Origin: a virus
Length of the DNA: 33,235 nt
Virus record (IMG/VR): IMGVR_UViG_3300028025_000013
Location: 1 to 33,235 of that record
Strand: one strand, 5' to 3'
Shown here: positions 17,198 through 26,995 of the stretch, in pieces
How positions within the stretch are numbered: position 1 is the stretch's first letter
How the letters are laid out: every line of letters starts with the position of its first letter
Made by a program: the position numbers and the translations under genes
The notes under the pieces: model-generated
Database searches by the model: none
What the model saw: the letters and a program-made list of their open reading frames with translations, nothing else
What the model was told of the DNA's origin: nothing

Positions 17198-17534
17198 TAG
17201 AATTGAGATGACCCTTGAGGTCCGTGGCGAAGTCCGTGCAACTGCTTACCCATTAAGGAATCACGAATCAGTAGAGAGGCAGAGAAGACAATGGTACTAC
17301 TTTTACGGATTAAAGAGCATCAAGGAATGGGAAATCTATATTACCCAAAAATCCATGATGCAGAACTCAATGCCTTACAGAATAGAAAAACCTTTTCCAT
17401 ATTTACTAAAATCACAACAAAATGGCACAGAACAAGAATCAGAATCAAGACCAGTCAGTCTCTATTGCGAACCAGTTGATACTTCAGGGGGACTTATCCA
17501 AGTTGTCGGCAAACGACAAAGTGAGGTATTATAA
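17187..17534 (+). CDS. Hypothetical protein with long overlap into RecT-like gene
   Basis: The ATG at 17187 gives 115 residues; the ATG at 17208 (MTLEVRGEVRATAYPLRNHE) is an alternative with no overlap upstream. The first part, with RQWYYFYGLKSIKEWEIYIT, reads like a genuine protein. The frame then runs 113 bases into the next gene with no stop, through sequence that contains the A-rich leader of that gene. The last 40 or so residues are thus less convincing. A lost stop or an indel near 17340-17420 may have lengthened it. Confidence 0.45.
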   Translation: MYYDRIEMTLEVRGEVRATAYPLRNHESVERQRRQWYYFYGLKSIKEWEIYITQKSMMQNSMPYRIEKPFPYLLKSQQNGTEQESESRPVSLYCEPVDTSGGLIQVVGKRQSEVL

Positions 17535-18144
17535 TGGTTATTGTGAAAGAATGGGACTTGACCCATTTACCAAACCTTTTGACATCCTCAGACTTAACGG
17601 CAAAGAGGTACTTTATTGCACAAGGTCAGGAACTCAGCAACTTAACAAACTGCACAAGGTATCGCACCTAATCACCTCAAGGGATACAAACGCTGAAGCA
17701 GGTGTTTATATTGTAACAAGCAAGGCATCTCTTCCTGATGGCAGATGTACGGAAAGTATCGGAGCAGTCAATATTGCAGGACTTAAAGGTGAGATGTATG
17801 CAAACGCGATAATGAAAGCGGAAACCAAGGCAAAACGGAGGGCAACACTTGACCTCTTAGGATTGGGTGTTTTGGATGAATCAGAGGCAGAAACCATCCC
17901 TAATGCAACCACAGTGGCATTGCAAACAATGGTTGAAGCATTGCCTCAGATGGAGGTAGAATCTGTTGAGGTTATTGAGGAAGATGCAGAGTTGAGCATT
18001 GGCAGACTTGCAATTGCAATAAAAAAGGCAAGTAACATTGTAGAACTCAAGGCGGTGTATGATGCCAACAAACACAAAATAGAAACGAACACATTTATAA
18101 AAGAACAATTAAAAACAAGAAAAAATGAAATACTTAAAGGTTAA
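17422..18144 (+). CDS. RecT-like single-strand annealing protein
   Basis: This 240-residue protein probably anneals single-stranded DNA in phage recombination. The core KVRYYNGYCERMGLDPFTKP, then DILRLNGKEVLYCTRSGTQQ, ITSRDTNAEAGVYIVTSKAS and KAETKAKRRATLDLLGLG follows the order seen in RecT-like phage proteins. The C-terminal 70 residues are acidic, then helical. The leader aaaatcacaacaaaATG fixes the start. SSB-like and nuclease-like genes follow, as expected for a recombination module. The exact subfamily is not certain. Confidence 0.65.
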   Translation: MAQNKNQNQDQSVSIANQLILQGDLSKLSANDKVRYYNGYCERMGLDPFTKPFDILRLNGKEVLYCTRSGTQQLNKLHKVSHLITSRDTNAEAGVYIVTSKASLPDGRCTESIGAVNIAGLKGEMYANAIMKAETKAKRRATLDLLGLGVLDESEAETIPNATTVALQTMVEALPQMEVESVEVIEEDAELSIGRLAIAIKKASNIVELKAVYDANKHKIETNTFIKEQLKTRKNEILKG

Positions 18145-19734: not shown

Positions 19735-20477
19735 ATACTGGACAAATAGTAAAGAGCAAGTCAACCGAAAGGTTCACAACTTTACCAAATGAGTTGATAA
19801 AGTCCAAGTCTCTGTCTCTTGATGAAAAAGGTCTTTTGAGTTATTTATTATCACTTCCATCAGATTGGGTCATCTACAAAAAGAATCTGTACAATAACCT
19901 TCCCGATAAACCAGGTAGCATAGATAGGGCATTTAAGGGGTTGCAGTCTAAGGGTTATATCTTATCAATCAAGATGCATGACCAAGGAACAGGAAGGTTT
20001 GTAGGTTGGAATCATATTGTCTATGACATACCTGCCGAAAGTGAACCTATCCGAGTTCGGGGAAACCCGACATCGGAAATTACCGACCTCGGTGAAAGTG
20101 CCATTATACAAAAGACTAATTCCATACAAAAGAAAGATTTAATACAAATAAAAGAATTAGAGTTTATTTCTGATGATTGGGAAAATATTTGGAAAGGATG
20201 GATGGAATATAAAAAGGTTGAGCATGGCAATAAGTTTAAGTCTTCCAAGACTGAACAGACTGCCATAAACAACTTAGTAGAACTTTCAAGCGGTGATTTA
20301 GAAACTGCAAAAAAAGTTATCAATCAAAGCATATCAAATAACTATAAAGGATTATTCAAACTTAAAGAAACTAAAAATGTTACCACTAAATCAAGTTCTG
20401 ACATCTATGCAGAACGCAGAGCAGAACTCCATCAGTACGCAGAAAAAATTGACCAACTCAGAGGAATTAGACCTTGA
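19731..20477 (+). CDS. Replication initiator with N-terminal winged helix
   Basis: This 248-residue protein has an N-terminal helix-turn-helix domain of the type found in phage replication initiators: FTTLPNELIKSKSLSLDEKG, then LLSYLLSLPSDWVIYKKNLY and SIDRAFKGLQSKGYILSIKM, at residues about 14-82. A low-complexity linker (about 100-143) follows, then a helical C-terminal part (WENIWKGWMEYKKVEHGNKF, SSKTEQTAINNLVELSSG). The linker DNA holds the iteron-like repeats at 20035-20098. The layout (DNA-binding head, linker with origin, C-terminal partner domain) matches lambda O in logic, not in sequence. No polymerase is encoded, so host replication proteins must be recruited. Confidence 0.65.
   Translation: MNTGQIVKSKSTERFTTLPNELIKSKSLSLDEKGLLSYLLSLPSDWVIYKKNLYNNLPDKPGSIDRAFKGLQSKGYILSIKMHDQGTGRFVGWNHIVYDIPAESEPIRVRGNPTSEITDLGESAIIQKTNSIQKKDLIQIKELEFISDDWENIWKGWMEYKKVEHGNKFKSSKTEQTAINNLVELSSGDLETAKKVINQSISNNYKGLFKLKETKNVTTKSSSDIYAERRAELHQYAEKIDQLRGIRP
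20035..20098. repeat. Four 16-bp iteron-like repeats, candidate origin
   Basis: CCGA recurs at 20035, 20051, 20067 and 20083, exactly 16 bases apart. The last three continue as the palindrome CCGA-NN-TCGG: CCGAGTTCGG, CCGACATCGG and CCGACCTCGG. Sixteen is not a multiple of three, so the repeat is read in different frames and cannot come from protein repetition. It lies inside the initiator gene. The likely role is binding of the initiator at the replication origin; an operator is the alternative. Confidence 0.65.
20106..20159. repeat. Three AT-rich 18-bp repeats, candidate unwinding element
   Basis: ATACAAA starts at 20106, 20124 and 20142, exactly 18 bases apart; the first two copies share ATACAAAAGA. 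The stretch is strongly A-rich on the + strand and lies seven bases after the 16-bp repeats. This is where a DNA-unwinding element is expected. Because 18 is six codons, it also appears in the protein as repeated Ile-Gln, so a protein-level cause is possible. Confidence 0.45.
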
Positions 20478-21135
20478 GAGGTTTAAACTATCAAGGACAT
20501 CACAACCAATAGCATCACTAAGCACTGCATTGGTTATTGATGAACTTATTAACGGGATGCAGAAACTTGGTGTTAAAGCAGATAAGATGCCAAACAATGC
20601 AGATATGTTAATCATGTACAAGTCAATAATGGAGGAATACCCTAACATTAAGGTAGGCGAAATCTCTCTTGCTTTTGACTTAGCAGCAAAGGGTAAACTT
20701 GACATAGAAGCAGAAACTTATCAAAACTTCTCAATGTTATACCTTCACAGATTGCTTAGAGCATTCGCAAGGTATGGGATGCAGAAACTTAATGAAATTA
20801 AACCAGTAGAAGAAAGCAAATGGCAACCAAGGTTTATTACGGATGATGAAAAGATAGAGACTGCGTTTGATTGTTATAAAAATTTTCGCATTTGGGATAG
20901 CATCGTATTCGGGGTGGATGTCTTCCATATCCTTCACAAGCAAGGCAAAATCATTGTAGAGGTTGAAGATACCTATGACAAGGTCCTGAAGGCAATGAAT
21001 GAGAAGATGTTTGAAGGTTCAAGGCAAGACAAGATAGACATCAAGAACAAAATGAAGGATGATGACTACATGGAGCATCAATGCTATCGGATGGCGGTAG
21101 CAGATTATTTCACTAAACTAATTAACAGAGGGTAA
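20407..21135 (+). CDS. Replication-associated protein, possible helicase-loader analogue
   Basis: From the ATG at 20407 the protein has 242 residues; an ATG at 20377 would add ten. It overlaps the initiator gene by 71 bases (101 from 20377). It is largely helical: VIDELINGMQKLGVKADKMP, MLIMYKSIMEEYPNIKVGEI, then MLYLHRLLRAFARYGMQKLN. No ATPase motifs are visible. By position after an initiator with an internal origin it occupies the place of lambda P, the helicase loader. I recall similar unnamed proteins at this place in Bacteroidota phages. The function is inference from context only. Confidence 0.5.
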   Translation: MQNAEQNSISTQKKLTNSEELDLERFKLSRTSQPIASLSTALVIDELINGMQKLGVKADKMPNNADMLIMYKSIMEEYPNIKVGEISLAFDLAAKGKLDIEAETYQNFSMLYLHRLLRAFARYGMQKLNEIKPVEESKWQPRFITDDEKIETAFDCYKNFRIWDSIVFGVDVFHILHKQGKIIVEVEDTYDKVLKAMNEKMFEGSRQDKIDIKNKMKDDDYMEHQCYRMAVADYFTKLINRG

Positions 21136-21440
21136 TGGACTTGACGGCAGGAATGATAACAAAGTTTGCACTTATCAAGTTGGAATCCAAAGGTTACTAT
21201 GTTTGGCGAAATAACAATTTGAGTGTACCTGGTCGCAAGTTCATTGGTGAAAGAGGGGTAGCAGATATCACAGGATTTTGCAAGACAACAGGCAAGGCGG
21301 TTTATTGTGAGGTTAAAACTATTAAGGATAAATTAAGCGATTTTCAAATAGTATTTCTCAATAGAGCAAAGAATGCAGGTGCTTTGTGCTACCTTGCAAC
21401 TGACAATAAAGGTATCCCTGAACTGAATGAATGGGTCTGA
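21135..21440 (+). CDS. VRR-NUC domain nuclease
   Basis: This 101-residue protein is a stand-alone VRR-NUC domain of the PD-(D/E)XK fold: GVADITGFCKTTGKAVYCEV followed by KTIKDKLSDFQIVFLNRAKN. The catalytic residues are probably Asp44 (GVADI), Glu59 and Lys61 (EVK), and Gln71 (DFQ) completes the family pattern. Such phage proteins act on branched or flapped DNA. It starts on the last base of the previous stop and overlaps the sigma-like gene by 10 bases. Confidence 0.8.
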   Translation: MDLTAGMITKFALIKLESKGYYVWRNNNLSVPGRKFIGERGVADITGFCKTTGKAVYCEVKTIKDKLSDFQIVFLNRAKNAGALCYLATDNKGIPELNEWV

Positions 21441-25146: not shown

Positions 25147-25814
25147 TGGAAGAACTGGTTAAAGAATATACCGACAAGGTAAACGCAGACCAAGAACTTA
25201 AAGAGTATAGGGACTGGATAGAAGCAAACGCATTCGGATTCGGTGAAAGATGCTTCTTGTGGATGTGGAACGATATCATCAAGAGAATGCCTCAAGAATT
25301 TACCTTTATGGAGATTGGAGTTTTCAGAGGGCAGATACTTGGACTTGTTGCTCTACTTGCAGAAAGACACGGCAAAAAGGTTAGGCGAATCGGGATTACT
25401 CCGCTTGACACATCGGATGGGCATTGGGAATCAGACTACGAAGCAGACATTAAGAAACTGCATGACACATTTAAGATTGCCGATGATTACGAACTAATCA
25501 CATTAGATTCAACCAATCCCGTAGCAGTTAAACTTGCCTCACAGAATCCACCCGATGTCCTATACATAGATGGAGGACATACTTATGAGGTGGTAATGTC
25601 TGACCTCAAGAACTATCTGCCAATCCTAAAGGTAGGCGGTACATTGGTAATAGATGACTGCAATAATGCTATCCCAATGCCTTGGGGTTACTTTGCAGGT
25701 ATCCAATCCGTATCAAACGCAGTAGACCAATTCCTCCCAAGAGAAGGACAGACAGAACAATGGAAGCATGAACTGAACCTGGTACATAACAGAGTATTAA
25801 CTAAACTAAAATAA
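25143..25814 (+). CDS. SAM-dependent methyltransferase (class I)
   Basis: This 223-residue protein has the SAM-binding motif FMEIGVFRGQILGL (Glu57 to Gly63), the acidic LYIDGGHTYEVVMSDLKNYL and KVGGTLVIDDCN, as in Methyltransf_24-type enzymes. Such enzymes often methylate sugars or small hydroxyl groups and occur in glycan clusters, which agrees with its place after three glycosyltransferases. Two adjacent ATG codons at 25143 and 25146 are both possible starts. Confidence 0.7.
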   Translation: MMEELVKEYTDKVNADQELKEYRDWIEANAFGFGERCFLWMWNDIIKRMPQEFTFMEIGVFRGQILGLVALLAERHGKKVRRIGITPLDTSDGHWESDYEADIKKLHDTFKIADDYELITLDSTNPVAVKLASQNPPDVLYIDGGHTYEVVMSDLKNYLPILKVGGTLVIDDCNNAIPMPWGYFAGIQSVSNAVDQFLPREGQTEQWKHELNLVHNRVLTKLK

Positions 25815-26995
25815 TGAATCCAATCACAGTTAAAATCAGCGAGGTAAAGTCTAACCCGAACAATCCAAGAATCATCAAGGATGACAAGTTCCAAAAGTTA
25901 GTCAAATCAATCAAGGAGTTCCCTGAGATGCTTAACATTAGACCTATCGTAGTAAATGCGGATATGGTAGTCTTGGGAGGTAATATGCGTTTAAAGGCTT
26001 GTAAGGAAGCAGGTATCAAAGAGTTAGCAATCATTAAGGCAGAAGACCTGACAGAAGACCAACAGAAGCAGTTCATCATCAAGGATAATGTCGGGTTCGG
26101 TGAATGGGATTGGGAAGACCTTGCGAATAATTGGGATGCAGAACAGTTGACAGATTGGGGGTTAGATATTCCTGACTTTAAACACGAAGAAGAAGCAGAG
26201 GAGGATGACTATGAAATACCCGAACATTTAAAGACAGATATTGTCCTGGGGGATATATTTGAAATAGGTCCTCATAGGTTAATTTGTGGGGATAGCACTC
26301 AAACAGATACATTTGCAAAACTATTTGAAAATCAATTAGCGGATTTAGTTGTAACCGACCCACCTTACAATGTGGCATACGAAGGGAAAACAAAGGATGC
26401 TTTGACTATTGCAAACGATAGTATGTCCGATGATTCCTTTTATCAGTTCCTTTACGATTTCTACACGGCATTAGGAAGTTACACCAAAGCAGGTGGTGCT
26501 TGGTATGTTTGGCATGCAGATTCCGAAGGGGCAAATTTTAGGTCAGCAATGAAGAATGCAGGAATAATGGTAAAGCAATGTCTTATTTGGGTTAAAAATT
26601 CAATGGTAATGGGTAGACAAGATTACCAATGGAGACACGAACCTTGCCTTTATGGATGGAAAGAAGGTGCTGCTCACGGATGGTATTCAGATAGAAAGCA
26701 GACAACTATTTTAGAATTTGACCGACCAAGCAGGAACGCAGAGCATCCAACGATGAAACCAATCCCTTTAATTGCATATCAAATAGGGAATAGTAGTAAG
26801 CAGGGAGATATCGTAGCGGATGCTTTTGGGGGTTCTGGAACTACAATGGTGGCAGCACATCAGTTAAATAGGAAGGGTTACCTCGTGGAATTTGACCCTA
26901 AATACTGCCAAGTAATAGTGGACAGGATGATGAAACTTGACCCTACTTTGGAAGTAAAGAGGAACGGGGAGAAGTATACTAAAACAATGGACTAA
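25814..26995 (+). CDS. ParB-domain/DNA methylase fusion (beta-class N4/N6 methyltransferase)
   Basis: This 393-residue protein has an N-terminal ParB/sulfiredoxin-like domain (residues 1-90; SNPNNPRIIKDDKFQKLVKS, VVLGGNMRLKACKEAGIKE). A methylase domain follows with DPPY at 182-185 and FGGSGTT at 338-344. DPPY before the SAM-binding FxGxG motif is the beta-class order. It probably methylates adenine N6 or cytosine N4 in phage DNA, protecting it from restriction. No cognate restriction enzyme is present. It stands directly before the terminase genes, three bases from the small subunit start. Confidence 0.85.
   Translation: MNPITVKISEVKSNPNNPRIIKDDKFQKLVKSIKEFPEMLNIRPIVVNADMVVLGGNMRLKACKEAGIKELAIIKAEDLTEDQQKQFIIKDNVGFGEWDWEDLANNWDAEQLTDWGLDIPDFKHEEEAEEDDYEIPEHLKTDIVLGDIFEIGPHRLICGDSTQTDTFAKLFENQLADLVVTDPPYNVAYEGKTKDALTIANDSMSDDSFYQFLYDFYTALGSYTKAGGAWYVWHADSEGANFRSAMKNAGIMVKQCLIWVKNSMVMGRQDYQWRHEPCLYGWKEGAAHGWYSDRKQTTILEFDRPSRNAEHPTMKPIPLIAYQIGNSSKQGDIVADAFGGSGTTMVAAHQLNRKGYLVEFDPKYCQVIVDRMMKLDPTLEVKRNGEKYTKTMD

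Follow-up and report, generated by a model that had tools for sequence, protein, structure and literature searches.

We examined the window, a viral record of 33,235 nucleotides (IMGVR_UViG_3300028025_000013) taken at its full length, at a locus that encodes a replication initiator followed by an overlapping partner gene (Table 1). The initiator matches a PHROG of replication initiation proteins at E 1e-14, and Pfam HTH_36 at E 5e-4, a match below Pfam's cut-off. AlphaFold2 gives the initiator a pLDDT of about 80-89 for residues 21-100 and <50 for residues 106-144, with the winged helix predicted fairly confidently and the helical C-terminal part less certain. The low-pLDDT linker is the stretch encoded by the site array and the AT-rich units described below. 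A structural search with the winged helix-turn-helix (wHTH) domain returned DnaB, RepA (pTZ2162/pSK41-type), RctB and DnaD among the best matches, at modest Z scores of 7-9 that other winged helices approach too.

Close relatives and contigs resembling Bacteroides phages carry homologs of the partner immediately behind the initiator. The partner gene matches a PHROG of unknown function, and its model is all-helical, with no PDB match by profile or fold. We considered it as a known helicase loader and rejected this, as it belongs to no family of known function and matches nothing in the PDB; judged by its position, it is a putative helicase-loading helper. Among the genes scanned, which cover part of the record's ORFs, there is no DnaB-type helicase. 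The record is classed as linear and may be a fragment of a genome. No direct DNA relatives were found in the phage collection, and protein similarity to phages of Bacteroides and kin points to a host of Bacteroidota type. The initiator is flanked by a weakly Rad52-like protein (17422-18144) and a weakly VRR-NUC/Holliday-resolvase-like protein (21135-21440), a gene order resembling that of TP901-1 (annealing protein - ssb - rep - RusA). Further along, two glycosyltransferases, a PLOD-type glycosyltransferase domain and a sugar or small-molecule methyltransferase cluster in mid-genome (22488-25814), next to an ORF (25814-26995) that fuses a ParB-N-like domain to an N6/N4 DNA methylase domain.

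Table 1. Features of the initiator locus, in window coordinates.
Feature	Position	Strand	Remarks
Replication initiator, 248 residues	19731-20477	+	wHTH at residues ~20-97, disordered linker 106-144, helical C-terminal part
Site 1, CCGAAAGTGA, half-degenerate	20035-20044	+	left half-site, in the 16-base register
Site 2, palindrome CCGAGTTCGG	20051-20060	+	codes for R-x-R
Site 3, palindrome CCGACATCGG	20067-20076	+	codes for P-T-S
Site 4, palindrome CCGACCTCGG	20083-20092	+	codes for D-L-G
AT-rich region, three 18-base units (20106, 20124, 20142), proposed DNA unwinding element	20106-20159	+	from AT content and synonymous divergence
Phased element ATACAAAAGACTAAT	20106-20120	+	13 bases past site 4; matches CTACTAAATACTAAT at 12/15
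Partner gene	20377-21135	+	overlaps the initiator 3' end, at the position of a helicase loader

An earlier note on this DNA had described four copies of CCGA at exact 16-base steps, three of them completing a palindrome, and we confirmed both the positions and the sequences. The copies at 20051, 20067 and 20083 are full CCGANNTCGG; in the half-degenerate one at 20035, CCGA is retained in nearly all close relatives, even where the amino acids differ. All four sites lie inside the disordered linker, ~300 bases into the initiator gene. The spacers in such arrays consist largely of A/T, which makes up 89-100% at positions 12-14 of a 16-base unit. Over the 33-kb record, CCGANNTCGG does not occur beyond the three linker copies, with 0.08 expected by chance, and 0 of 100 shuffles reached three. 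The genome-wide count that the note had proposed accordingly shows no equally spaced or clustered sites elsewhere in the record. The GC skew, whose cumulative curve it had also proposed to compute, is positive over nearly the whole record; the curve climbs with no minimum and neither supports nor refutes an origin here. The site bound by a dimer could be either CCGA-NN-TCGG or TCGG-N6-CCGA: the edges of the array favour the former pairing, and the one-turn spacing and A/T spacer favour the latter.

A step of 16 bases shifts the reading frame from each site to the next, so that the sites read R-x-R, P-x-S and (D/E)-x-G. When one member was taken from each of 34 clusters, many of them retrieved by the site pattern itself, the sites occupied all three frames and the spacing was exactly 16 in 34 of 40 cases. 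Serine 115, invariant in the 34-member alignment, is specified by CCGANNTCGG. Synonymous recoding of linker residues 96-125 (n=200,000) gave three sites in no sequence and two sites in 9. For 19 distinct close relatives, the mean pairwise synonymous divergence of 0.22 outside the region falls to 0.016 at third positions within half-sites (p 0.0002, codon resampling) and to 0.035 in the AT units, and the drop is confined to codons about 101-145. Relatives at ~50% protein identity keep the 16-base palindrome steps while the encoded residues are altered. The array and the AT-rich element are selected at the DNA level. The constraint on the coding sequence that the earlier note had proposed is borne out by the loss of sites on recoding and the collapse of synonymous divergence, as is the retention of the repeats at synonymous sites in relatives. 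In the 16-base branch, constraint on the DNA has clearly dictated the protein linker in each of the three frames.

The three AT-rich units were found at the positions and 18-base steps reported before. They had been placed seven bases after the array, which is correct if the array is taken to run to the end of its fourth 16-base unit; the last palindrome ends at 20092, leaving a gap of 13 bases to the first AT-rich unit. AT content is 78% in the 60 bases downstream of the array vs 64% for the initiator gene, and in 28 representatives it is 0.77 after the array vs a gene mean of 0.66. The 18-base step is a multiple of three, so the AT units alone could be a peptide repeat; conserved synonymous positions indicate that they too are under DNA constraint. 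Directly downstream of the array, the AT-rich repeats keep a fixed register of 13 bases in the window and 11 in TP901-1 relatives. The best match of the linkers to the family element CTACTAAATACTAAT averages 11.80/15 vs 10.44 (sd 0.10) after synonymous recoding; the motif was derived from members of the scored set, which favours the absolute match and affects the recoding comparison less. Of the 32 members with at least 12 matches, 12 have their nearest site ending 11 bases upstream of the element, and another 11 have it ending 13 bases upstream.

The element resembles motifs of bacterial origins. The strand of the DnaD recognition element (DRE) of Bacillus subtilis oriC is CTACTATTACTTCTACTA (PMC10201434), and DnaA-trios are 3'-GAT-5' (PMC10721633), the complement of CTA. 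The DRE strand begins like CTACTAAATACTAAT. The likeness is short and AT-rich only, and the window's own copy, ATACAAAAGACTAAT, is weaker. Since the DnaD-like fold of the initiator domain (2v79, Z 6.8) adds to the sequence likeness, we treat a relation of the family element to DRE or DnaA-trios as a lead, and no more. If the phased element is a motif recognized as single strand, bacterial oriC and the origins of phages would have an opening element in common.

We searched for the array without reference to the protein. Viral contigs, scanned completely, contain 32 loci with three sites spaced 16 bases apart, and 32/32 lie in the linker of this initiator family. The same three-site scan of 257 billion bases of genomes gave 8 matches, none in the family. 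These are mostly exact or near-exact tandem copies, spacer included, unlike the phage arrays, in which the spacer and the two central bases mostly differ between copies; named bacterial genomes with the three-site array were dropped as a route to the host, none of the 8 matches being in the family. With the requirement set at two sites 16 bases apart, viral contigs gave at least 119 loci, and 90 of the 119 listed match the initiator profile, a few of them marginally. Those outside the profile, among the loci listed, are mostly on GC-rich contigs and are taken as chance or other repeats. In the whole records of ten relatives the sites are few, and in 8, judged from their positions, they cluster in the initiator array; record G009 has no perfect sites and record G008 has two scattered ones. 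Perfect sites are also absent or altered in relatives L036, L050 and L064-L075. The last form a sister clade with a different recognition helix (GKDSISSAWDEL), in which CCGANNTCGG is lost and 15-base repeats of GGAAAGCGG are found instead, possibly reflecting a change of site specificity. One further initiator (L196:1116-1967) carries five CCGANNTCGG at spacings of 16, 76, 32 and 16, which amounts to two site groups in one gene.

Named phages with homologous initiators and the same linker layout span several phyla. The arms are CCGC-NN-GCGG in phiEF-1.1, CCGT-NN-ACGG in a Parageobacillus phage and CCGA-NN-TCGG in a Terrisporobacter phage, and CCAT-NN-ATGG and CCAC-NN-GTGG are present in IMG/VR relatives. 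In 56 representatives the linkers hold 107 sites vs 12 expected after synonymous recoding; as some of these were retrieved by pattern, the fair figure is that for the protein-found relatives, with 74 CCxyNNy'x'GG sites vs 16.5 in synonymous recodings (maximum of 500, 26), in a family set that rests on the first profile. Scanning for CCAC-NN-GTGG at 15-base steps without regard to the protein gave 55 loci, 31 of them in the initiator family; for loci with non-identical copies the count, taken from the list, is 21/24. On the wHTH tree, which is short (96 columns), has long branches and includes CCGA members that were partly pattern-selected, the palindrome-arm type changes 5 times for 6 types. 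No smaller number is possible, and such a pattern would be expected of initiators that each recognize their own site. The layout is not universal, since no such array is found in several more distant relatives (a Caldicellulosiruptor plasmid, a Helicobacter prophage and a Pectobacterium phage). Two plasmid rep genes of the DUF6017 type (L330 and L333) show CCAACATTGG and CCGACATCGG palindromes among five-codon repeats in their Rep linkers, which suggests the same origin layout in conjugative plasmids.

A more general proposal, to which we assign slightly less than even odds, is that HTH_36 phage initiators and some DUF6017 plasmid Reps share one compact intragenic origin grammar across phyla. 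It would consist of 2-5 palindromes CCxy-NN-y'x'GG at 15/16-base steps with A/T spacers, followed at 11/13 bases by a CTACTAAATACTAAT-like element working like DRE or DnaA-trios; the wHTH would read positions x and y as a specificity code, and the 16-base branch would spend all three linker frames on encoding the origin. This cross-phylum grammar and the phased element would be the parts of specialist interest. The layout provides a DNA signature by which sequence alone can point to the origin within an HTH_36 initiator gene, and it ties an initiator to its binding site.

We propose that the array and the AT-rich element, lying in the linker-coding part of the phage's own initiator gene, are its replication origin, with a probability of about 0.88. 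The earlier note's picture of a binding-site-type array next to an AT-rich element within the initiator gene is upheld at the level of sequence. The initiator's winged-helix domain would bind the four 16-base-spaced sites as dimers or higher oligomers, and the resulting nucleoprotein complex would strain the phased AT-rich stretch and open it. The opened strand, together with the C-terminal part of the initiator and probably the product of the overlapping downstream gene, would then help to load the host's replicative helicase; a host helicase is proposed because none of DnaB type was seen among the genes scanned. For uncultured phages of Bacteroidota type, a large group, the locus offers a candidate origin.

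The initiator might instead bind the array as an operator for autoregulation or as a copy-control site, with the origin elsewhere. Initiators often bind sites in or near their own genes, and our evidence speaks for a binding array and not directly for initiation. We nevertheless consider an operator improbable: the array sits ~300 bases inside the gene and is adjoined by a phased AT-rich element with its own synonymous constraint, the record has no second array of such sites, and the homologous repeats of TP901-1 and Tuc2009 serve as origin (PMC8965321). Less probable again is a binder other than the initiator, for instance a phage regulator, a partition protein or a factor of the host. Binding by the initiator is a prediction, and the record also encodes the ParB-N/DNA-methylase fusion, but the sites sit in homologs of one gene and the sequence of their arms tracks the tree of that protein.

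That the pattern is a mere peptide repeat or codon-bias artefact would fit a linker predicted to be disordered and repeat-rich, as well as the 15-base-step relatives, whose array reads as a five-residue peptide repeat. This account is already contradicted by the synonymous-site tests, and we give it almost no weight: the 16-base steps run through all three frames, the sites are lost in synonymous recodings and the synonymous positions are frozen at the array.

A replication origin at this locus can be compared with several known systems. RepA_N initiators (pSK41, pTZ2162) and the RepA of the Vibrio cholerae PLE have wHTH domains among the best structural matches (4pql, Z 8.0; 5kbj, 7.8; 4pt7, 7.5; 4pta, 6.8), with Z 6.8-8.0 over 78-81 residues, a range that unrelated wHTH proteins come close to. 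RepA_N-type iterons contain inverted repeats converging on a poly-A tract (PMC7145576), similar to the TCGG-A/T spacer-CCGA of the phage array. These systems differ in having other iterons and, for PLE, an origin in a noncoding region, and none of 34 members of the initiator family matches RepA_N (PF06970) at E 0.01, the main match being HTH_36. In SPP1, gp38 binds direct repeats beside an AT-rich DUE inside its own gene, at oriL (PMC6316719), and the likeness to the phage origin proposed here is one of layout.

The lambda origin in gene O likewise has four binding sites and an AT-rich tract in the middle of an initiator gene, followed by a partner gene (PMC7466680), although its annotated 18-base iterons stand at 20-24-base steps. 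The earlier note had found the protein not evidently related to O, and this holds: hhalign gives a probability of 0.1%, and there is no Phage_rep_O match. A PHROG named 'O-like' matches the initiator at E 1e-5, pointing at most to a remote kinship. An apparent likeness to the lambda AT tract (ACAAAAGAC...TACAAAAGAAA) was rejected, as it falls within dinucleotide shuffles (p 0.13). As O is unrelated by hhalign, the resemblance to lambda is one of layout, an analogy and not membership.

The closest known system is that of the lactococcal phages TP901-1 and Tuc2009, whose replisome organizers (ORF13 and ORF16, respectively) bind direct-repeat-rich regions in their own genes that act as the origins, on experimental evidence according to PMC8965321. 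The N-terminal wHTH of the initiator aligns with TP901-1 Rep at 38% identity over 95 aa by blastp (E 9e-18, single comparison), and hhalign gives a probability of 99.4% (E 1.3e-21). The earlier suggestion of an independent case does not stand, as this domain is homologous to that of a Rep whose origin lies within rep (PMC8965321). In the same linker, TP901-1 rep carries 10-base palindromes CCAGATGTGG at 15-base steps, followed by an AT-rich repeat, CTACTAAATACTAAT; recombination and resolvase genes lie nearby, as in the phage record, where the Rad52 match is weak. TP901-1 differs in its arms (CCAG vs CCGA here), its step (15 vs 16), an unrelated C-terminal half and its Lactococcus host. Judged from these sequences, the putative phage origin is a Bacteroidota-phage branch of the TP901-1-type intragenic origin design, a kind already known from lactococcal phages; it is ordinary in kind and unusual in clarity.
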